A stretch of DNA of 64,000 nucleotides from an uncultured Fibrobacter sp. (GTDB lineage: Bacteria; Fibrobacterota; Fibrobacteria; Fibrobacterales; Fibrobacteraceae). The notes under the pieces were generated by a model, which ran no database searches, had not been told where the DNA came from, and saw nothing but the letters and a program-made list of their open reading frames with translations. How positions within the stretch are numbered: the stretch's first letter is position 1; each line of letters starts with the position of its first letter. The translations under genes were made by a program, and so were the position numbers. The DNA is taken from positions 1 through 64,000 of the forward strand of contig OMSO01000002.1 of assembly GCA_900313675.1 (NCBI GenBank). Reading direction: 5' to 3'. Shown in pieces: positions 47,714-58,874 of the stretch.

Positions 47714-49123
47714 ATGGACGCGTACCGGGTCCTTTTGTTGTGGCAAAAGGAAGGGACTTTTATCAAGGAAAGCGGGCTTTCGCCTTTTGCGATGGAACTT
47801 GCCCTGGGCGTGTGCCGCAGGCACCTGTACTTGCAGTATTTCATCAAGTCGCTGGTCAAAAAGAAGCCCTCCCTGGAAGTCTGCACCATTCTCGAAATGG
47901 GATTTTTCCAGATGTTCTTTATGGAGGTGCCGGACCACGCCGCCGTTTCGACAAGCGTGGAACTTTCAAAGGCGGCGAACCTTCAAGAAGGTTCCGCGCG
48001 GCTCGTGAACGCCGTGCTGCATGCCGCGCGCAGGTCCGGCTTGCCGCAGCTTCCTCCCCAGCGGGTGCGTCGCGTTTCCGTGGAAAATTCCGTTCCCGAA
48101 AGTCTGGTGCGCCGGTGGTTCGATATTTACGGAGCGGACCGTGCCGAAGCCCTTGCGAAGGCTACTCTGGAGCGCCCCTCCGAATGGCTCCGGGTGAACT
48201 TGCAGAAGACGACTGTAGAGAGTCTTGTGACAAAACTATTTGTCACCCTGGAGGGGTGTAACCCCGATAGGGTCCAAGAAGCGTTAGCCTCTGAATCCTC
48301 AAAGCGAAGCGACCTCATGCCTCAAAGCGCCGAAGGTGCGACCTCATACCTCTATGACCGTTACATCCAGGTTCCCGAAGGTGCAAAACTCAAGTCCATT
48401 CTGGAATTGGAATCTTTTGCTAACGGCGAATTCAGCCTGCAGAATCCTGCCGCCTATGAGGTGGTGAAACTGCTGGACCTGAAACCCGGCCAAAAAGTCT
48501 GGGACGCCTGTGCCGCCCCCGGAGGAAAGTCCGCGCTGATGGCCGAGATGGAACCGACTTTGGATATTCTGGCCAGTGATGTTTCGGAGTTCCGCGTAGA
48601 AAAGATGCAGGACTTGCTGGACCGTCTGGGCCTTGTGAACGTGCATCTCGAATGCATCGACGCGCTTTCGCCTCAATTGCCTGTCACCCTGGAGGAGCAA
48701 CGCTCCGATAGGGTCCAAGAAGCGCTAGCCTCTGAATCCTCAAAGCGAAGCGACCTCATACCCCAAAGCACCGAAGGTGCGACCTCAAACCTATTTGACC
48801 GCATCCTCCTGGACGTCCCTTGCAGCAATATGGGGGTCATCGCCCGCCGTCCGGAATCGAAATACCGCATTACGCCGGAGTCCGTGAAGGAACTTGCGGA
48901 ACTGCAGTCCAGGTTGCTTGCCTCGGCGTCGCAGGCGCTGAAGGTGGGTGGCATTCTGGTCTATGCCACCTGCAGCCCCGACCCCATGGAAACGACCCAG
49001 GTGGTGAACCGCTTTGTCAAGGAACATCCTGAATTCGAGAAGGTGGGGGAGCCGGTGTACCCCGGTGCAGAGGATTCCCGCCTGGACGGATTTTTTGCCC
49101 AGGCCCTGAGGCGAAAGGGGTAG
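47714..49123 (+). CDS. rsmB: 16S rRNA m5C967 methyltransferase RsmB, with two 35-residue repeat insertions
   Basis: RsmB methylates C967 of 16S rRNA. It has the NusB-like N-terminal domain, the SAM loop DACAAPGGKSAL, motif IV as DVPCSNMG (usually DAPCSGTG) and YATCSPDPMET. Two inserts, residues 177-211 and 324-358 from this start, are 35 residues each and identical at 29 positions (VTLE....DRVQEALASESS ... KRSDL.PQS.EGATS). They are translated from family B plus family C repeats. The first sits before the N-terminal part of the catalytic domain, the second just before FDRILLDVPCS, so both fall in loops. Start: ATG 47714 is preferred; the frame is open further upstream. Confidence 0.94.
   Translation: MDAYRVLLLWQKEGTFIKESGLSPFAMELALGVCRRHLYLQYFIKSLVKKKPSLEVCTILEMGFFQMFFMEVPDHAAVSTSVELSKAANLQEGSARLVNAVLHAARRSGLPQLPPQRVRRVSVENSVPESLVRRWFDIYGADRAEALAKATLERPSEWLRVNLQKTTVESLVTKLFVTLEGCNPDRVQEALASESSKRSDLMPQSAEGATSYLYDRYIQVPEGAKLKSILELESFANGEFSLQNPAAYEVVKLLDLKPGQKVWDACAAPGGKSALMAEMEPTLDILASDVSEFRVEKMQDLLDRLGLVNVHLECIDALSPQLPVTLEEQRSDRVQEALASESSKRSDLIPQSTEGATSNLFDRILLDVPCSNMGVIARRPESKYRITPESVKELAELQSRLLASASQALKVGGILVYATCSPDPMETTQVVNRFVKEHPEFEKVGEPVYPGAEDSRLDGFFAQALRRKG
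48241..48350. repeat. Family B plus two family C stem-loops, first copy in rsmB
   Basis: Family B: GTCACCCTGGAG-GGGT GTA ACCCC-GATAGGGTCC. Then family C twice: CCTCAAAG-CGAAG-CGACCTCAT and CCTCAAAG-CGCCGAAGGTG-CGACCTCATACC. 110 bp, length compatible with the frame. Confidence 0.85.
48682..48790. repeat. Family B plus two family C stem-loops, second copy in rsmB
   Basis: The same order as the first copy, but the family B core is GAGC AAC GCTC and the second family C core is GCACC GAA GGTGC. The changed arms still pair. Confidence 0.85.
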
Positions 49124-49126
49124 CGA

Positions 49127-49765
49127 ATGTTTGTTTGGATGAAAACCATAGTCCTGGTTCTTGCGGTTGCCGGTTTTGCCTTGGCACAGTCCTTGCCTGA
49201 TTCGTCAAATGTTCAGCCCTTGCCCGATTCAACAAAAACTCAGGACGTGGCCTTTTCCAACCTCTACGTTTCTATCGAAGGTGGTGAGAAATACCCCTTT
49301 GGCGACTTGGTGGACGCAGTCAACAATACTTTTTATGCGGGTCTGGGAATTCGTTATACCTACTGGGAGGATTTTGACGGAATCGTTCTTTTCCAGTACG
49401 CCTATTTTGAACCTCACGGAAAAATTCCTCGCATTAACGGCGTTCACGAGGCCAGCGGAAAACTGGGGCTGGATTACCGTTGGCGCCTGATTTCGCCCAT
49501 CGCTTTTGGAGCCGGGTTTCTTTGCAATTGGACCCGGGCCGATTATGAAGGCGACAAGGAAGACTTTGATTTTGGTCATGACCCTGGGGCGACATTGACG
49601 GACAACGAAACAGAATTCGGTTGGTTTGCCCGCCTAAATTTGCCGGTTTTCACATTGAATAATTACCGTGCGGGCTTGAACGTGCTTTGGGAGCAGGTAT
49701 GGACCCTGCCGGAGCGCTCCAACATGCTGTCCGTTGGACTCTACGTCGAAAGGAGGATTTGGTAA
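49127..49765 (+). CDS. Outer-membrane beta-barrel-like protein, 212 residues
   Basis: An exported protein (signal peptide ending GFALA) with a short Pro/Asp/Ser linker and then barrel-like strands (FYAGLGIRYTYWEDFDGIVLFQYAYF; GKLGLDYRWRLISPIAFGAGF), ending NMLSVGLYVERRIW. GGGG seven bases upstream supports ATG 49127. Its stop overlaps the next start (TAATG), so the two are a pair. Confidence 0.75.
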   Translation: MFVWMKTIVLVLAVAGFALAQSLPDSSNVQPLPDSTKTQDVAFSNLYVSIEGGEKYPFGDLVDAVNNTFYAGLGIRYTYWEDFDGIVLFQYAYFEPHGKIPRINGVHEASGKLGLDYRWRLISPIAFGAGFLCNWTRADYEGDKEDFDFGHDPGATLTDNETEFGWFARLNLPVFTLNNYRAGLNVLWEQVWTLPERSNMLSVGLYVERRIW

Positions 49766-51477
49766 TGTTCTCCTTTGTAAGCAGAGCCACTTTGATGAAA
49801 ATTGCTAGTGCGGTTATGTTCTGCGCTATTGCCACCGTTGCTGCCGTCGATGCCGAAATGGAAGGCATGGAAGTGGATCAACGGGACGACGGAACGTTCC
49901 TGGTCGGTAGCCCCACCTTCTATTTTGACCGTGCCCTCGGCAGTGGTGGACTCCATTCCGAAAGTGAACTATGGAGTCCTTCAAAAATCAGGCAGCGCCT
50001 GTTGTTCAGCCGCCTGTCCGTCTTGCCCAGTTGGGACGTGTTGCCGCCATTGGTCTGGCTCAAGACCGGAAACGAACTGGGTGACCTGATTTACCAGGAT
50101 TTTATCACCACCGAAGATAGACCCAAGAACAGGACCCCTATTTTGGAAGGTGGTTTCCGTAGCCCCAGTTTCAAGGGATTCTGGGTGACGGCCCGGGGTT
50201 TCCAGGACGACCATTTTTCTACAAGGACATTTTCTTATCGAAAAAAAATGGTAGATAGCGAGTTCGCCCTTTTCGGCGAGAACTATCCCATGTTCAGCTC
50301 CGTGTATGCGGGGGCAGGTTATACAGGTTCCCAGTTGAACGTGTCCGCCCTGGCAGGGGAGGAATACCTGTGGCTCTTCTACGAAAGTTCCCGCTGGATT
50401 CCCGTGCATTACAAGCCGAGGGTGGAAACCCGCCTGGACTATGGAAAGTTGGCCGCTACCGTCGTTTACGAGGATGCCGAGTATCAGAACAAGAAAAAGA
50501 AGGAGACGGGCAGCCGTAAGGAATGGAACGGTTCCTTGCGCTACGGCTGCGGGGATGCCTGCCGCAAGGGATTCTTGCATCTTTCCGCAGGAGTGGCCTT
50601 CCGGGCAGTCGATGACGACGGCACGGTTTACAGTTCCCTGGAAGATGACCGTGTGCTGCTCCCCTTTATGGAAATGCAGTTCAGGGTAGGGAACCGCTTT
50701 GCGGCCCGCGCTTCCTTCGCGGTAAACGACAGGGACTGGCTGGTGCAGGACAGCATAGAGTTCAGTCCTGCCGTTCCCTCGAAATCGGGAATAACCCTGG
50801 GCGTGAAAAACATTTCGGGAACCCGCCTGAACCCTATGGCAGATACCAGGGAGTTCTTTGACGGCGACACCATCTCCTTGACGGCGGACGGCCGGATGGA
50901 CTTGGTGCAGGGATATGCAGCCTTCACGGATACCGTGGGCAATCTGGAAATGGGTGGTCGCGGGAGTTTCTGGGCGGAATACGGTGCAGAAACTTTCGAC
51001 GTAGAGAAATACGTGGTGGACGACATCATGGTTTATCGCCATGGCGACATAGGCCGTATCAACGATTGGATCAAGGGCGTGACCGGGGAACTCTGGATGA
51101 GCATTTGGTACAAGGAAATGTTCGTTTTCAAGGCGCTGGGCGGTTTCGAGCGGATCGACGGCGAAGAAAAACGTTTCGAGGTAACTCCTGCGGAATATTT
51201 TGCGTCGTTCTCAGCGGACTGGCTCTTGCGAAAGAGCTTCAGGATTTCCCATTCCTTGCGCTACAGGAGTGACGCCCAATGGAACTTGCGGAGCCGCGAC
51301 CCGATGGTCATCAAGGGCGACTGGTTCTGGGACGCCACTTTCGAACAGCAATTCCCCAAACAGGGACTTTACCTGACAGGAACATTGCTTCACGTGATTG
51401 GCGACGAAGTGGTGGAAACGCCTAACGGCGCCGAAAACCACCTACGGTTTGTCTGTACGGTGAAGAAGACGTTCTAG
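49765..51477 (+). CDS. Large outer-membrane protein, function unknown
   Basis: A 570-residue exported protein with signal peptide, rich in aromatic alternating strands (FWVTARGFQDDHFSTRTFSY; LEMGGRGSFWAEYG; HLRFVCTVKKTF at the end), so probably a beta-barrel of 16 or more strands. AGGAGG precedes ATG 49765. Coupled to the preceding smaller barrel gene. The decayed mutY fragment begins four bases after its stop codon. Confidence 0.75.
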   Translation: MFSFVSRATLMKIASAVMFCAIATVAAVDAEMEGMEVDQRDDGTFLVGSPTFYFDRALGSGGLHSESELWSPSKIRQRLLFSRLSVLPSWDVLPPLVWLKTGNELGDLIYQDFITTEDRPKNRTPILEGGFRSPSFKGFWVTARGFQDDHFSTRTFSYRKKMVDSEFALFGENYPMFSSVYAGAGYTGSQLNVSALAGEEYLWLFYESSRWIPVHYKPRVETRLDYGKLAATVVYEDAEYQNKKKKETGSRKEWNGSLRYGCGDACRKGFLHLSAGVAFRAVDDDGTVYSSLEDDRVLLPFMEMQFRVGNRFAARASFAVNDRDWLVQDSIEFSPAVPSKSGITLGVKNISGTRLNPMADTREFFDGDTISLTADGRMDLVQGYAAFTDTVGNLEMGGRGSFWAEYGAETFDVEKYVVDDIMVYRHGDIGRINDWIKGVTGELWMSIWYKEMFVFKALGGFERIDGEEKRFEVTPAEYFASFSADWLLRKSFRISHSLRYRSDAQWNLRSRDPMVIKGDWFWDATFEQQFPKQGLYLTGTLLHVIGDEVVETPNGAENHLRFVCTVKKTF

Positions 51478-51480
51478 CGC

Positions 51481-51757
51481 TTTCAAACTAAAGCTGTTGG
51501 CGAAAAATTCTTTTGCCTTTTCTAACGTAACTCACCGAATGTCTGGTGCCGTGCGCTTGGGGGCTTTTGTACTGAGCAAAATGTAGAGCACGTCGCATTC
51601 CATCTTGTGGACGGTAATGCTGTGACGGAACTTGCCGATGTTCTCGACGGACAGGACCTTGTCGGCATCGATGTAGCGTTCCGCCTGGGCGGGGAGGCCG
51701 GCGGTGGCGTTTCGCGGGCTTTCAAAGTGTGGGAGGGTGAACTGGTTCTTGAAGAAT
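51481..51757 (-). pseudogene. Decayed 3' end of mutY
   Basis: On the minus strand this reads FFKNQFTLPHFESPRNATAG ... LPAQAERYIDADKVLSVENI ... GKFRHSITVHKMECDVLYIL, nearly the same as residues about 280-355 of the intact MutY at 56692. The stretch 51590-51756 differs from 56820-56985 at only a few bases. Beyond it the two diverge, and codon TGA at 51532-51534 replaces the expected tryptophan, after which VTLEKAKEFFANSFSLKAL still continues in frame. Similarity stops abruptly at GAAGAA (51756). Confidence 0.85.
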
Positions 51758-51826
51758 TGTCTATATTTGGCGTACCTCTAATTCTGCTTAACTGCACTGA
51801 AAGAACATATTGTAAAGAATCTGAAA

Positions 51827-54800
51827 ATGAATAAAATCTTTTTATTTGCTTTTGTGGCTTTTTCCATTGTATCTGCTGAAGTTGATTACGACAATGCGAT
51901 AAAGATGTACAAAAATCTTCCTGAAGAAGCCGAGGATCTTGATAGTTATCTAAAATGGTTGGAACCTTATGACCAGTCATATCTACCTTATGAAAAATGT
52001 AGTGAGGTGACGAATTTAAAAGTCGTAAAAATAGAGGAAAAGGTAAAATACTATTACGATCACAAAGATGGTATATTGGATACAAGACATTATTACGCCC
52101 TTGTTAGCATTGTTCGAATAACTTATAATGTTACATGTTTGAATAAATTATCTTATGAGGGTGTTCAATATCTTTTTAGTGATCCCAAAAAGATAGATGG
52201 CTCTATTGCTCAAGACGATGATGTTTTAAAACGTTTTAAAGCCCATGTCCATGATTTTGAAGATAAAACATTGGATTGTTTGAATGAGAAAGGTGTTTTC
52301 TACGATAAAACTAGGGAGTATCGATTTAACAATTATGATGTCTTTGATAGGTCGGCGCTAATTGAATATTGGAAAAATTTGAATGTTCCCTACCCCCATT
52401 GGGTGTATATCCCGGGTCCAAGTAGGTTGTCCCGCCCCGTTGTATTTGTTCACGGATTGAATGACGATTATACAACCTGGGGCGTCGAACCTTTGGTTGA
52501 TAAGGGTGAAAAAGGTGTAAATAAGAGTGACGAAAAATTCCAAAATGGATTGGTGAAATCATACGATAATGGTTCTGCACCTGATATTTTAGCTAGATAC
52601 TTAAATATTGATAATGGAGAAAAAAGCATTAATCATAACGGGATATATTTTTTTCAGGCTCCGGGAAATGTTGAAAACGGTAAATGGAGAGATGCCAAAC
52701 CACATTGGAACGGGGCAAATGGAGATAATTCCCAGTCTAGCAAGCTGTATCAGCGCTTGATAGAAGTGTTGGACGATTTTTATGCTGATTCAAATCTAGA
52801 ATGGCGAAAACGCCCTGAATTAGTCGTTGACATTGTTGCACACAGTCAGGGCGGCCTTGTCGTCCGCGAAATGTTACGGGGACTCCGGGCAGAAGGTGTA
52901 GATACGTCATGTAGCAATCCTGCCAATCACATACGAAAACTCGTTACTGTCGATACTCCACATTTAGGGGCGGCTACGGCTGCAAGGAGTTCTGAAGACA
53001 TTAGAACAGAATATCCGGGCTTGGGCAAGTTGATTGACGACTTGAACGACTATGCTTCTGGAGACCCCACAAACCACCCGTTGATGAATATTAAGATAGG
53101 GGTGGACTATCTTAGCCCGATGATTCCTTTGATTTCCGGTGCGGCTGCAGGGGTTGTGGGTGGTGCATTGGGCTTTTTGGGCATAGCTGTGCCTGTTGCT
53201 TCAAGTGTGCCTACAGTGACAGCCACTGCTGGAGCTGCAGGTGCTGTTGTAGTTACTGCCGCTGCTACTGGTGTTGCTACCGCATCTGTATTCGAATATA
53301 ATATTTATACAGTAGGACCTTTTTTAGGACCTTATAAAATAGGGCTCAACATGGACCCGCTTGGACCGGGAAGTTTTGATGTTCCATATTCCATAGAACT
53401 AGACCCCTTGGATGATTATCGCAACATGGCAACTGAAAATAGAATCTTGGGTGATTATTTATATAATAAGGATAAATTTATAACAGATTTGAATTATGGG
53501 TCAAACGGAGAATCTTATCCAAGATTGCCCAATGGAAAGAGGCTGGTTATCTTGCCGTTATATTCAGGCGATGTTTCCATGGTGGTTGTAGAAATGCTGA
53601 AACAGTACGACGAGGCTTTAAAAATAAAGTGTCCCGAAGTGTCTAAAGATGAACAGGAAGCCTGCGTCGCATTGGATGTGTATCTACAGACTATGGCCGA
53701 TAGAATTTCAAGGGCTTATACCCGCAAAACAATAGACGTAGAAATAGATCCAAACGATACCCTATTGACCATATTGAACGACATTCGGGAAACCTGGCTT
53801 ACGAATAGCGACCTGATTGTAGAAGTTGAAAGTCAAAAGTATGAAAGTAAAAGTTTAGGCATATCACATAAAGATATTCCTGAATTGGAAGAAAGCCGTT
53901 CCTACTTGCTTCACGACGCCTTGGCGCCCGATGAACCTGTTGCCCATTTAAGTATTCCTGGAGCGGTGCCCGCAACCCGTCAGGGATTGGATATTGCCTG
54001 TGCCTTGGATTTATGTTGTGATTCCCTGCTCGCGGAAAAAGCCGGTGTGAAGATGATTTATTTGAATAATGGAAGTGTCGGCATGACGGGAGACTTCGAT
54101 GTTGCACCGATTTTCTTGAGTAAAGGAGTGCAGGGCATACGGGTGTCGGATGGAGCGAATTTGTTAGAGGCCATATATGAGCCGGGCGTTGGCTCCTATG
54201 TAAACTACACCGACAAGGATGGTAATTTACAACATGATATGATACTTCAAGCGAATATTTCCACTAATCCTCGGTTACAAAGGGTTGGCCAAAGTATTTC
54301 GGCGAAATTTATAAATTATTCGGGAAAAGTCTTCTCCAAAGATTATACGATGTCGGGAATAAATTCCAATGTCACTCTCTCCATTATAGGGGAAGAAGGA
54401 GCGTCTTTGCCCGCAGTGATGCCTGGTGTAGGGAATGTCAGTGATTTAAATACACAGGTTGCTCCAACTTCTTCAAAATCTTGGGAAACGAAGAAAAATG
54501 TTTTTGTAATGCACCGAGAAGCGAGGGGCGATTATGAAAGTAATACATCCCGACCAAGATTTCTTGTTGCAAACGTTTCTGACAAGAATATAGAAGGTTT
54601 TAAGGTGGCATACTACTTTACGGCGGACCCTGCAAGGAACCCTAAAGTTGTGATTGACTATCCCAAGATTCCTGTGACTCTAGAGAATTTGGGCGGCGAC
54701 CAATGGCGGTTTGTGCTTGACGCAAGCGATTCCGTCTTGAACGCGATGTCCGTGTCTCCCAGTTTAGACGGCTGGCAAATACGACTCTACTACGAAAGAG

Positions 54801-55411
54801 ATTGGAGCGACTTCAATTATTTGGATGATTGGTCTGCCGACTATAACATCGGTGTTCCCAGGATGAATTCCAAAATTGTCGTTTACGGAGTTGACGGTCA
54901 GATTCTGTGGGGGCAGGAACCAGAACCGTTCAGGAGTTCCGATGACGGCCTGATTCCGGCACCCAAGGGAATCATTTCCTGGTCGGATGTCGCTCCTTGG
55001 GAGAACAATATGTTCAAACCCCAGGTCACCGTGAAAAATACTGGCTCCGTCGCGTTGAAGGACTATCATGCCAAATTGTGGTTCCGTGTCCCGGAGGGCA
55101 AGGAACTCTATATTCCCGTAGATGACTGGTATACGCCTTATTCTAGGCCTACGCTTCGAAATAATGGAGAAAACGTATGGGAACTAGACTTGTCCTTCAA
55201 TGAGTATATTCTTTATCCTGGAGATTCCGTGATAGAAGGGAATGTCGGTGTTCATCTGAAAGATTGGAGCGCGTTTGACAAGACCGTTTGCGGTATTGCC
55301 CTGATGGACTCGGACGGGAATGTCGTTTATGGAAATATACCTTCCGTAAGTGAGTGTAAGTCCTATGACACTCCGAGTCTTTTGCAACCCTTGTATGTGT
55401 GGAGGTTCTAG
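51827..55411 (+). CDS. Large secreted alpha/beta-hydrolase (lipase/esterase-like)
   Basis: A 1194-residue protein with a signal peptide (MNKIFLFAFVAFSIVSA). The hydrolase core lies at about residues 195-400: RPVVFVHGLNDDYTTWG gives the oxyanion loop, and DIVAHSQGGLVVREML the nucleophilic Ser in GHSxG-like form (AHSQG). LVTVDTPHLGAATA follows, as in PGAP1- and LipA-like lipases. A Gly/Ala/Val-rich stretch of about 60 residues (about 430-490) could enter membranes. The C-terminal 250 residues hold two beta domains with a CBM3-like look (EGFKVAYYFTADPA; TGSVALKDYHAKLWFRVPEG). Substrate unknown. The following lipoprotein gene starts one base after its stop. Confidence 0.8.
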   Translation: MNKIFLFAFVAFSIVSAEVDYDNAIKMYKNLPEEAEDLDSYLKWLEPYDQSYLPYEKCSEVTNLKVVKIEEKVKYYYDHKDGILDTRHYYALVSIVRITYNVTCLNKLSYEGVQYLFSDPKKIDGSIAQDDDVLKRFKAHVHDFEDKTLDCLNEKGVFYDKTREYRFNNYDVFDRSALIEYWKNLNVPYPHWVYIPGPSRLSRPVVFVHGLNDDYTTWGVEPLVDKGEKGVNKSDEKFQNGLVKSYDNGSAPDILARYLNIDNGEKSINHNGIYFFQAPGNVENGKWRDAKPHWNGANGDNSQSSKLYQRLIEVLDDFYADSNLEWRKRPELVVDIVAHSQGGLVVREMLRGLRAEGVDTSCSNPANHIRKLVTVDTPHLGAATAARSSEDIRTEYPGLGKLIDDLNDYASGDPTNHPLMNIKIGVDYLSPMIPLISGAAAGVVGGALGFLGIAVPVASSVPTVTATAGAAGAVVVTAAATGVATASVFEYNIYTVGPFLGPYKIGLNMDPLGPGSFDVPYSIELDPLDDYRNMATENRILGDYLYNKDKFITDLNYGSNGESYPRLPNGKRLVILPLYSGDVSMVVVEMLKQYDEALKIKCPEVSKDEQEACVALDVYLQTMADRISRAYTRKTIDVEIDPNDTLLTILNDIRETWLTNSDLIVEVESQKYESKSLGISHKDIPELEESRSYLLHDALAPDEPVAHLSIPGAVPATRQGLDIACALDLCCDSLLAEKAGVKMIYLNNGSVGMTGDFDVAPIFLSKGVQGIRVSDGANLLEAIYEPGVGSYVNYTDKDGNLQHDMILQANISTNPRLQRVGQSISAKFINYSGKVFSKDYTMSGINSNVTLSIIGEEGASLPAVMPGVGNVSDLNTQVAPTSSKSWETKKNVFVMHREARGDYESNTSRPRFLVANVSDKNIEGFKVAYYFTADPARNPKVVIDYPKIPVTLENLGGDQWRFVLDASDSVLNAMSVSPSLDGWQIRLYYERDWSDFNYLDDWSADYNIGVPRMNSKIVVYGVDGQILWGQEPEPFRSSDDGLIPAPKGIISWSDVAPWENNMFKPQVTVKNTGSVALKDYHAKLWFRVPEGKELYIPVDDWYTPYSRPTLRNNGENVWELDLSFNEYILYPGDSVIEGNVGVHLKDWSAFDKTVCGIALMDSDGNVVYGNIPSVSECKSYDTPSLLQPLYVWRF

Positions 55412-55412
55412 T

Positions 55413-56687
55413 GTGAGGTTGATATTAGCAATACTTGCTGCATTTATTTTGGAAGCCTGCACAGACCGTTCATCTACAGGGCCGAATGATTACAATGATG
55501 ATAGAGTCTTCGGCTGGAGATGGGATGATTTCAAGCCCATTCCGCATGATTCAAAAATGTATGGAGGATTGCGCGAAATTTATAATGTGGGTGAATGGCT
55601 TGTACTGATGGACGACTATTATTCAAGTAACGAATATACTTCACCAGGAAAAATAACAACCACTCCAAGGGTATTTGCTTCAAAAATAGGTTCTACGCAA
55701 TGGGATACTCTTTCCAGTTCCGAATGGATTCGGTATATCTATGGAGATTCAACCGGCCTCTATGCTGGAACGCAGCTTAGCGGCAAAGTGCTGAAATATG
55801 ATTTTGAAAAGAAATCCTGGGTTGATTTATACACGCTTCCGTTTGACCCTAAAGGTGCCTTTGATATTTATGGAATTACGACATATAGGGGAAGGCCTGT
55901 TGTCTGCATTGCCGGCTATGCTGATAATGCGGACAGGCGGGACGACAATATTGTGCTTTTCATGAAAATGCAGACCGATACGGGCTGGGTAGATATTACT
56001 TATGATTACGATTCGTCCAAGGAATATCCCTTCCAATTTCACAAGGGAGTGGAACTGAATGGTAAATTGTATGCCATTAGCGGGGCCCGCGGGGTTTGGC
56101 GTTATGATGGAAGTTGGAAAAGGCTTGCTCGAATTCCCCATCCAAGTTGGGCAACCTGGGTTCCTGCAAATGATACTAACGACACTGCAATGGATATCAT
56201 AGTACATAAAGGAAAATTATATGTGATAGGTGAAAAATTTTCGACCAATGTCCTTGAATATGACGAGGCTCTTGATCAATGGATTCCCATAGATAGCGTT
56301 ATTGCGACTTATGATGAATCCATAGACCCTAACGATCCTTTGGCGGATCCTAATAGAGGTTATAGAACTTTTCACAATACTCCTTATAGGCGGTACACCC
56401 TTGCTTCTGATGGAAATCATCTCCTTGTCGCAGGAGACGATCCATCTCTCCCAGCGGTGTATATGGGTGACTATGGCTCGCCATACGGAAACGAGGAAAA
56501 AGGATGGCGACTCGTAAATGGAAATTGGTGCGATGACTGGAAATGTATCGCAAATGACGGCACCTACGACATGATTGCCGTAGGTGACACCCTGTACCTC
56601 GCCAACTGGGAGGGTGTCCTGAAATTTCCACTTGTTGATTTAGATAGCGCAATATCCAAGGAAAAATCTTACCCTACGGCGTATTAA
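55413..56687 (+). CDS. Lipoprotein with beta-propeller-like repeats
   Basis: A 424-residue protein starting at GTG 55413, eight bases after GGAGG; the lipobox LEAC confirms this frame start (MRLILAILAAFILEAC). The mature part has kelch-like blades (GLYAGTQLSGKVLKYDFEKK; GKLYAISGARGVWRYDGSW; GKLYVIGEKFSTNVLEYDEA). It is directly downstream of the secreted hydrolase and shares the segment with it, so it may anchor, help fold or inhibit that enzyme. That is inference. Confidence 0.75.
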   Translation: MRLILAILAAFILEACTDRSSTGPNDYNDDRVFGWRWDDFKPIPHDSKMYGGLREIYNVGEWLVLMDDYYSSNEYTSPGKITTTPRVFASKIGSTQWDTLSSSEWIRYIYGDSTGLYAGTQLSGKVLKYDFEKKSWVDLYTLPFDPKGAFDIYGITTYRGRPVVCIAGYADNADRRDDNIVLFMKMQTDTGWVDITYDYDSSKEYPFQFHKGVELNGKLYAISGARGVWRYDGSWKRLARIPHPSWATWVPANDTNDTAMDIIVHKGKLYVIGEKFSTNVLEYDEALDQWIPIDSVIATYDESIDPNDPLADPNRGYRTFHNTPYRRYTLASDGNHLLVAGDDPSLPAVYMGDYGSPYGNEEKGWRLVNGNWCDDWKCIANDGTYDMIAVGDTLYLANWEGVLKFPLVDLDSAISKEKSYPTAY

Positions 56688-56691
56688 AGGG

Positions 56692-57828
56692 TTACACAAA
56701 TTTTAGCGCCTTCAAACAGAAACTGCTGGCGAAAAAGTCCCGTGCCGACTCGCGCCTGACCCACTTGATTTCAGAAGACGCAGGCGCTGGGGCCTTGCCG
56801 TTTAGTCGTATGTACAGCACGTCGCATTCCATCTTGTAGACGGTGATGCTGTGACGGAACTTGCCGATGTTCTCGACGGACAGGACCTTGTCGGCATCGA
56901 TGTACCGTTCTGCCTGGGCGGGGAACCCGGCGGTGGCGTTTCGCGGGCTTTCAAAGTGGGGGAGGGTAAACTGGTTCTTGAAGAACTTTTGCCCGCCGTG
57001 GATAGCTAGAATTTTATGATCGGCGCTTTCCACAATCAAGACCGTGCCGTGCCAGTCTTTTTGCATGTGCTTTTTGCTGGGCGGAAATTCGTCGCTCCGG
57101 TTTTCCAGATGTGCCCGGCAGGCATTTTGTAGCGGGCAATTGGCGCAGTCGGGGTTCTTGACTTTGCACACGGTGCGGCCCAGTTCCATCAGGGCCTCGT
57201 TGTGCATGTAGGCCTTGGGGCTGTTCGCCACATCCCTTGCGTAATCCCAGTAAATTTCCGACGCACTTTGGATTTGCTTATTGGTTGTCATGCCCGATTT
57301 AGTCGGGCATCTCCTTTTTTCCAGCTTGTCCGTCGGTAAAAAGTCCAACGCATTCAATCTCGAAAAAATCCGCACCAGGTTGCCATCCAAAATCGCTTCC
57401 CGCTGGTGGTAGGCGAGGCTTAAAATCGCCCCTGCGGTGTAAGCCCCGATTCCCGGCAGTGCTTCCAGTTCCCTGCGGGTGACCGGAAGAGTCTTCTTAT
57501 GGACCCTATCGGAGCTTCGCTCCTCCAGGGTGACAGCCTTTGCCGTCTTCAAAATGTTCCTTGCCCTGCTGTAATACCCAAGCCCTTGCCAATACTTGAA
57601 TACTTCTTCTTCACTTGCCTTGGCTAGTGTTTCAACATCGGGAAACCGTTTCATCCAGCGGATAAAATACTCCCGCACGGTTGCAACCTGGGTCTGCTGC
57701 AGCATGGTCTCGCTAATCCATACGGCGTATGGGTCCCGCGGTGCGTCCAGATCAGCAGGCCGCCAGGGCAATTCTGCGGCGTTTTTACGGAACCAATCCC
57801 GTAACTTTTTTAGAGTTGTAACATCCAT
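56692..57828 (-). CDS. mutY: A/G-specific adenine glycosylase, with two repeat-derived insertions
   Basis: MutY removes adenine opposite 8-oxoguanine. Glu40 in SETMLQQTQ and Asp148 in ILDGNLVRIF are the catalytic residues, LPGIGAYTAGAI is the helix-hairpin-helix, Cys221, 228, 231 and 237 bind the Fe-S cluster, and a C-terminal NUDIX-like domain follows. Residues about 99-111 (VTLEERSSDRVHK) come from a family B repeat, and about 172-183 (RRCPTKSGMTTN) from a family A repeat. The start overlaps the stop of the lipoprotein gene upstream (TAATG). Confidence 0.96.
   Translation of the reverse strand: MDVTTLKKLRDWFRKNAAELPWRPADLDAPRDPYAVWISETMLQQTQVATVREYFIRWMKRFPDVETLAKASEEEVFKYWQGLGYYSRARNILKTAKAVTLEERSSDRVHKKTLPVTRRELEALPGIGAYTAGAILSLAYHQREAILDGNLVRIFSRLNALDFLPTDKLEKRRCPTKSGMTTNKQIQSASEIYWDYARDVANSPKAYMHNEALMELGRTVCKVKNPDCANCPLQNACRAHLENRSDEFPPSKKHMQKDWHGTVLIVESADHKILAIHGGQKFFKNQFTLPHFESPRNATAGFPAQAERYIDADKVLSVENIGKFRHSITVYKMECDVLYIRLNGKAPAPASSEIKWVRRESARDFFASSFCLKALKFV
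57285..57314. repeat. Family A stem-loop inside mutY
   Basis: TTGTCATGCCCGA and TCGGGCATCTCC pair around TTTAG. Read in frame as RCPTKSGMT on the coding strand. Confidence 0.85.
57501..57534. repeat. Family B stem-loop inside mutY
   Basis: On the minus strand GTCACCCTGGAG-GAGC GAA GCTC-CGATAGGGTCC. The flanks match the rsmB copies; the loop differs. Read as VTLEERSSDRV, the same frame as in rsmB. Confidence 0.85.
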
Positions 57829-58874
57829 TATGGGCAGCTGCCGTAGGTTCCTATGGACGTTATCTCAAAAGGAATTGAAAGTGTCTGCGAAGATGTCCAG
57901 TAGATTTTGATGGCGGCGACCTGGGATAAAAATTCGTCCCGTTCAAGGGAAATCAGTCCTTCTTTTTGTTCTTGGACAAAATTATTCCAACTGATGTTTG
58001 CAGAAGTTTCCGTTGGCTCAAAATGTACGACAAACGGAGCAATTATGTCTCCTTGCTGATGGACAAGCTCTATGGTTGTTTCAATATGAATTTTACTGGT
58101 CATGCAGATTCCTCCCCAAGATGAAATGTTCGCGCCGTCGCGTTTTTCATTGACCAGATTAAAATAAAATCCGGCATAGGGCGTGCTGTAACTGGAGTTG
58201 TCAAGGAGAACATCTCCGCAGATCCCTGGACAAATTTTTTTGTCTTCCATCAGGCTGATTTCCGATGTTCCGCCTATTTCGTAATCGCCAAAAATATTCC
58301 ATATGCCAGATGTCTTGGAGCCATCGTCAAAATCGGTGTTCACTCTTTCGTCGTGGTCTGGACCGCACCAAAGATTGCCACATTGAGAATTAGAGGATCC
58401 TGCAGATGAAGAACTGTTCCCGTTAGAATCGCTGCTTCCGCCCGATCCTTTCCCGCTATTGTTTGCTTTGTAATCGCTGCAATTGGAAAACTCCGGGTGT
58501 ATTTCCCAGGTAGCTCCGTTGACCGTCTCTTCGCAAACAAATATCATGTTGAAGTTTTCTTCAAACAGTGTCTTGCCAACCCTAGAGGAGTTACAGTTGA
58601 AATCTTCTACAAGACCGTGGTCGTCGCAGTCTTCGTGGTTCGTATACCGTCCATTGTTGGAATTGTTGCCATTGAAGTCTTGGTTATTTTCGTGGTTATC
58701 TCCATGATCCTTGTCGTCGTTGTTTTCTTCGTCTTCCCCCTCGCAACTACCGGCAAAACATTCCAGGGCAGAAATGTCGTTTTCTGCACCGCTGCACCCG
58801 CAGAGCGTAATCGAACACAGCAAAGCCAAACCGGCTGCGCATCCCGTAAAGAATTTTAGGTTGGTTGTATTCAT
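57828..58874 (-). CDS. Lipoprotein with CBM11-like C-terminal domain
   Basis: A 348-residue lipoprotein (lipobox LCGC) with a long Asn/Asp/His-rich spacer (residues 48-85), a small Cys-containing domain, a second Ser/Gly/Asn linker and a C-terminal beta-sandwich starting NTDFDDGSKTSGIW. The last domain resembles the DNFEDG-type CBM11 modules of the cellulases here. Three genes (outer-membrane protein, this lipoprotein, mutY) are packed in one direction. Confidence 0.78.
   Translation of the reverse strand: MNTTNLKFFTGCAAGLALLCSITLCGCSGAENDISALECFAGSCEGEDEENNDDKDHGDNHENNQDFNGNNSNNGRYTNHEDCDDHGLVEDFNCNSSRVGKTLFEENFNMIFVCEETVNGATWEIHPEFSNCSDYKANNSGKGSGGSSDSNGNSSSSAGSSNSQCGNLWCGPDHDERVNTDFDDGSKTSGIWNIFGDYEIGGTSEISLMEDKKICPGICGDVLLDNSSYSTPYAGFYFNLVNEKRDGANISSWGGICMTSKIHIETTIELVHQQGDIIAPFVVHFEPTETSANISWNNFVQEQKEGLISLERDEFLSQVAAIKIYWTSSQTLSIPFEITSIGTYGSCP

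Follow-up and report, generated by a model that had tools for sequence, protein, structure and literature searches.

A hydrolase–lipoprotein gene pair between two mutY 3′ ends in a Fibrobacter genome points to one-sided homologous acquisition of foreign DNA

Many variable bacterial loci contain no mobile-element genes, and their growth is often unexplained. Integrative elements typically insert at the 3′ end of a gene and restore that gene. Lipase effectors of the type VI secretion system (T6SS) are found in effector/immunity pairs (Tle/Tli), in which an alpha/beta-hydrolase with a GxSxG motif is encoded beside a lipoprotein partner. For the T6SS effector/immunity displacement arrays of Vibrio cholerae, homology-facilitated illegitimate recombination (HFIR) has been proposed (Kirchberger et al. 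2017, PMC5361080), and the orphan 3′ modules of Rhs and contact-dependent inhibition (CDI) systems are discussed in the same paper. Here, we analyzed 64,000 nucleotides from an uncultured Fibrobacter sp. (positions 1–64,000 of contig OMSO01000002.1, hereafter the window or C47; genomes, contigs and loci of the comparison set carry the prefixes G, C and L). In this window, the last ~285 bp of mutY are present twice, and the two ends bracket a 4.9-kb, low-GC segment encoding a secreted hydrolase and a lipoprotein. We consider it reasonably probable that this foreign pair entered by HFIR, with homologous recombination on one side only and the mutY 3′ end as its anchor.

The HFIR proposed for the V. 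cholerae T6SS arrays is the closest published process. As in those arrays, there is a homology anchor at one end, with no homology found at the joint on the other, modules are stacked and displaced 3′ ends lie downstream together with orphan immunity-like genes. Unlike those arrays, the anchor is the 3′ end of a housekeeping gene (mutY or acyl-CoA dehydrogenase, ACAD) outside any secretion-system locus, the cargo is convergent to the anchor gene and the anchor is rebuilt rather than lost. Rhs/CDI loci likewise show displaced 3′ ends in strings with immunity genes and recombination through a conserved part, but there the displaced end is the toxin's own, whereas here it is mainly that of an unrelated core gene, with hydrolase C-terminal stubs beside intact lipoprotein genes also seen. 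A literature search returned no precedent for displaced-end scars of housekeeping genes.

The mutY gene of the window is intact (378 aa), and its 3′ part recurs in the same orientation at 51472/51474–51758 (−) with 82% identity over 287 bp (E = 2e-76). Identity between the copies reaches 95% over the inner 176 bp (51581–51756 in the outer copy) and is only about 50–75% over the outer ~105 bp. The outer copy is collinear with mutY and carries a genuine TGA nonsense codon (..DIR*VTLEK..) at a position where relatives have a Trp codon (TGG). A survey of direct repeats in the 13 kb around the duplication returned one further repeat, inside an rsmB-like gene.

Comparison with the closest species (G007, G015, G048, G055 and G073) showed that the mutY 3′ end exists in this clade as two segregating alleles. 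Type A tails, found in G015 and G055 as the ends of functional mutY genes, match the outer copy of the window at 97–100% over the terminal ~105 bp and adjoin the neighbor gene in the same way. Type B tails, found in G007, G048, G073 and others, resemble the tail of the working copy, which is ~90–92% identical to G048 and G007 in parts and 48–50% identical to G015 and G055 in 60 divergent columns. The type B tail of the working gene continues straight into the lipoprotein gene, and the outer copy adjoins the neighbor gene that is present at every empty site. From its match to type A tails and its retained neighbor, the outer copy is the native mutY tail with very little decay, whereas the tail on the working gene is that of the other allele. 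A first-pass annotation, made from the letters of the window alone, had read the outer copy as diverged, decayed and interrupted by a nonsense codon; the divergence and the TGA stand, and the decay does not, as the divergence is a difference between two alleles. Since the copies represent different alleles, simple duplication of one sequence is excluded, and recombination with DNA of the other allele fits.

The bracketed segment is compositionally foreign, which bears out the A+T richness remarked on in the first-pass annotation. Its two genes have a GC content of 0.43–0.44, and their GC contents at third codon positions (GC3), 0.41 and 0.40, are the two lowest among the 37 open reading frames (ORFs) of the window (mean GC3 0.64, standard deviation 0.09). 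They also show the most atypical codon use of these ORFs. Coordinates of all features are collected in Table 1.

Table 1 Features of the mutY site in the window
Feature	Position	Strand	Remarks
mutY, working copy (adenine glycosylase, PF00730 + PF00633)	56692..57828	-	Body native-like; last ~110 bp = tail type B; ends ..LKALKFV*
Inner 176 bp of mutY tail, working copy	56810..56985	-	95% identity to scar copy
Outer mutY tail, type B, putatively imported	56692..56809	-	~90-92% to G048/G007 tails; ~50% to G015/G055 across 60 divergent columns
Displaced native mutY 3′ end (scar)	51474..51758	-	Type A tail; TGG->TGA nonsense; still adjoins native neighbor
Non-homologous junction scar/cargo	51758..51759	.	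68 bp upstream of hydrolase: no match in other loci searched
Convergent conserved neighbor of mutY, other edge of empty site	49762..51477	+	No Pfam family
Secreted alpha/beta-hydrolase, serine-esterase/lipase-like, effector-like partner	51827..55411	+	PF05057; GHSQGG motif; CBM3-like domain at residues 886-1031
Lipoprotein, beta-propeller fold, putative immunity/partner protein	55413..56687	+	Structure model; often kept without hydrolase

The relatives of the window genome are Fibrobacter, and the mutY site was compared across a genus set of 80 genomes including its own, 79 of which have mutY. The mutY region was retrieved from all 78 mutY-bearing relatives and scored by the gap between mutY and its convergent neighbor. 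In 73 of the 78 the site is empty, with mutY directly facing the neighbor (gap ≤250 bp) and the ORFs often abutting or overlapping. The five others comprise G069, where the contig ends, G027, G029 and G074, which have other synteny, and G066, which is filled. The window pair was found at the mutY site in none of the 78 relatives and is altogether absent from the five closest species. Neither condition under which the first-pass annotation would have been refuted (segment and duplicate common to all relatives, or a duplicate out of line with mutY) held true.

In G066, 2.5 kb separates mutY from the neighbor, and the last 70 bp of mutY, including the stop codon, recur just before the neighbor with 100% identity. 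The cargo (L123, 5079–7450) encodes a secreted DUF6345 protein, an unknown 333-aa protein and a small 185-aa lipoprotein-like protein. G066 is thus a second filled mutY site, with the same architecture and other cargo in another species, of the kind that the first-pass annotation had proposed to look for in relatives.

Two further sites in the genus hold the hydrolase–lipoprotein pair between duplicated flanks. In G050, the pair is bracketed by a 121-bp sequence in two copies (82% identical), and the empty sites of G014, G049, G056 and G068 have this sequence once. In G036, the pair and a PDZ gene lie between an intact ACAD gene and a 645-bp copy of its 3′ end (99%). G034 has several ACAD 3′-end copies 2–7 kb apart with differing cargo between them, including the pair, and in G012 the hydrolase and another lipoprotein face the ACAD 3′ end. 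Displaced ACAD ends are stacked in G034, G036, G038 and G012, and the cargo of these arrays includes AbiEi/AbiEii, a PIN/UPF0175 pair, a GmrSD-type endonuclease with an EcoRI-type methylase, and RhuM. Foreign composition, two allelic tails, empty sites and recurrence elsewhere together support recombination of foreign DNA at mutY, one of two origins that the first-pass annotation had left side by side.

At ACAD, the order of events can be read directly. In G011, ACAD leads straight to AbiEi. The displaced ACAD copy of G038 aligns with this G011 stretch, from ACAD nt 988 to a point 816 bp beyond the stop, at 94.5% over 1542 bp, and a new module of ~6 kb comes after the intact ACAD of G038 and its ~100-bp trailer. 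G011 and G038 form a clean before/after pair: the new module entered between ACAD and its old neighbor, and the old 3′ end stayed with that neighbor. Such scars give direction as well as order, since the gene end beside the old neighbor is the older one.

By the favored mechanism, the DNA that brought in the 4.9-kb foreign module would also have borne the 3′ end of a related mutY allele. A homologous exchange within mutY would have linked the native 5′ body to the donor tail, leaving the gene whole, and the incoming DNA would have joined at its other end, without detectable homology, to a site within the 3′ part of native mutY. The native type A tail would thereby have been duplicated beyond the insert, remaining as a scar beside its old neighbor. 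The window is consistent with these steps in that the homologous anchor lies on one side only, within the resident gene (mutY body, then donor-type tail, then cargo), and no homology to relatives was found at the other end of the cargo, where the joint falls at 51758/51759. Recombination between the two mutY ends would restore the empty site or release a circle.

Several points weigh against HFIR at mutY. The window insertion is seen in only one genome, a draft of 2.4 Mb in 78 contigs that is 81% complete. Any microhomology at the joint could be judged only against a donor sequence. No donor with adjacent type B mutY and lipoprotein gene was found among the genomes searched, so we infer the import, and likewise the donor, the recombination route and the order of events. 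Finally, the duplicated ends in G066 and G036 are 99–100% identical, as plain local duplication would also give. These near-identical copies (70 bp at 100%, 645 bp at 99%) favor an alternative in which the native mutY end was duplicated locally when a break was repaired with foreign DNA as filler, as a very long target-site duplication, and the working tail was later swapped for type B. In the window, however, the type B sequence of the working tail extends all the way to the cargo, and type B strains with an empty site, lacking the cargo, could not provide homology on that side; we regard this sequence of events as improbable.

A somewhat better, although still unlikely, alternative is that the filled site formed in another strain and was transferred whole by a double crossover between mutY and the neighbor gene, the duplication being part of the donor's history. 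The flanks are mosaic and recombination in the clade looks frequent: a lipoprotein-like gene upstream of mutY (57828–58874) is 98% identical to that of G055 and mostly 28–59% identical to those of other relatives. Yet the scar and the neighbor gene closely match the local clade, no such donor was seen among the 80 genomes and whole-site transfer would alter where the insertion happened rather than its underlying mechanism. The lipoprotein-like gene itself is absent from many relatives and is another recombining allele beside mutY.

Integrase-driven genomic islands and integrative and conjugative elements share with this locus the insertion at a gene 3′ end and the restored gene, both typical of such elements, and the first-pass annotation had considered an element that restores mutY with its own copy. 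Unlike such elements, the locus shows no integrase, no common core and no vector relatives. No PF00589 integrase is encoded on C47, as the annotation had correctly noted (the three matches of the genome lie on C29, C67 and C68), no tRNA gene lies near the insertion and no terminal inverted repeats were seen at the segment ends. The repeats at different genes (70, 121, 285, 645 and 722 bp) revealed no common attachment core, and phage or plasmid matches were lacking. A remnant of a site-specific element at a mutY attachment site, with its integrase lost, is therefore very unlikely. A transposon was rejected for want of a transposase, terminal inverted repeats and a short target duplication, and a phage or plasmid carrier because the lipoprotein had no match in IMG/VR or PLSDB and the hydrolase none in INPHARED.

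The draft and apparently metagenomic nature of the assembly, with two mutY tail alleles in the clade, might suggest a chimera of two strains. A chimeric join at the shared 176 bp could not, however, create the hydrolase–mutY joint at 51758, where the shared sequence ends and the cargo meets mutY, and the same architecture recurs in independent assemblies, so that an artifact of this kind is very improbable.

Beyond mutY, related species bear the same type of scar at other genes, a recurrence that suggests repeated stacking of competition and defense genes without a dedicated integrase. How general this is was judged on the fetched loci, where displaced 3′ ends were found at mutY and ACAD, with little of that kind in the remaining mutY-flank sequence. 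Only tentatively can HFIR be extended to a general, integrase-free mode of accretion in Fibrobacteraceae, in which convergent housekeeping genes collect effector/immunity and defense modules behind them. With each insertion, the 3′ end would be rebuilt and the previous one left as a scar, and the direct repeats, with hairpins resembling repetitive extragenic palindromic (REP) elements at some scar edges, would make the modules cassettes that are excised, circularized and reinserted by homologous recombination alone. If general, displaced core-gene 3′ ends would offer a simple computational signature for hidden competition and defense modules that does not depend on recognizing the cargo.

The island behind ACAD is variable in G034 (C1, 255000–295000; L190 and L191) and G038 (C2, 230000–262000; L193 and L194), with stacked displaced 3′ ends, AbiE toxin–antitoxin genes, restriction-related genes and lipoprotein genes, and G034 has two full ACAD genes. 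REP-like, GC-rich hairpins of the GAGGGGG..CCCCC and GAGGCGTAAGCCGAACGGTC types stand exactly at many ACAD fragment edges (L195, L196, L198, L205, L206 and L190–L194), and several ACAD scars start directly after one. They also occur inside ACAD copies, including the broken gene of G058, and neither mutY scar has them; a hairpin motif as a required site at scar edges was rejected on these grounds. REP-like hairpins are at most portable homology, and such dispersed repeats may supply the second crossover at ACAD.

The cargo itself was examined for function. The hydrolase (1194 aa) matches PF05057 over the cut-off, has a conserved GHSQGG motif with the predicted active-site Ser340 and begins with a signal-like sequence, in line with the earlier assignment of a secreted hydrolase and a lipoprotein. 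Its CBM3-like domain was found in agreement by sequence profile search and by matches of the AlphaFold model, a low-confidence model (pLDDT 59, pTM 0.35) that gave sensible matches for the CBM3-like part only. The lipoprotein, whose start is most likely the GTG at 55413, was modeled as a beta-propeller (pLDDT 71.5) and has no Pfam match over the cut-off. Neither protein had a PADLOC match. As in Tle/Tli pairs, an alpha/beta-hydrolase with a GxSxG motif adjoins a lipoprotein. Unlike those pairs, the hydrolase carries an N-terminal signal-like sequence and a CBM3-like C-terminal domain, and the partner is a modeled beta-propeller that reaches no Pfam cut-off.

The hydrolase–lipoprotein family is patchily distributed (25 of 111 Fibrobacteraceae genomes). 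A lipoprotein gene lies immediately downstream of all 11 hydrolase genes (a different lipoprotein in two of these), and the pair genes abut in nine species at differing chromosomal places. The lipoprotein gene occurs 18 times across the genus; among the 16 occurrences not cut by a contig edge, nine have a full hydrolase gene upstream and seven have none or a short C-terminal stub. In Fibrobacter sp. UBA4223, the G050 site holds only the lipoprotein (95% identical), preceded by the final 19 nt of the hydrolase gene, and F. intestinalis ATCC 43854 has an internally deleted 106-aa hydrolase with an intact lipoprotein. Retention of the lipoprotein without the hydrolase resembles the pattern of orphan immunity genes, which is suggestive rather than proof, and the pair probably encodes an antagonistic effector and its immunity protein. 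This role is countered by three observations. The hydrolase of G005, one of the 11, is interrupted by an internal stop. Part of the orphan bias is to be expected, which weakens it, since at 2.7 times the length of its partner the hydrolase gene would be disrupted more often. The CBM3-like domain is also compatible with a polysaccharide-associated enzyme and polymer degradation rather than a toxin. In a main fiber-degrading gut genus, this family is a candidate for a new antagonism system.

Further variants of the module were observed. Two tandem units, each a hydrolase C-terminal stub with an intact lipoprotein gene (243-bp repeat, 92%), lie in L216 (8225–11257) and look like a small orphan immunity array. 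In other species, a gene for a PDZ-domain protein often stands third after the pair (L089, L091, L094, L095 and L222); it is missing in the window. Palindromic repeat units that keep the reading frame occur within the coding regions of mutY (57280–57330 and 57498–57536) and the rsmB-like gene (48241–48371 and 48682–48812). They encode protein segments such as SDRVHKK and SDRVQEALASESSKRSD, vary in presence between species and are reminiscent of Rickettsia palindromic elements.

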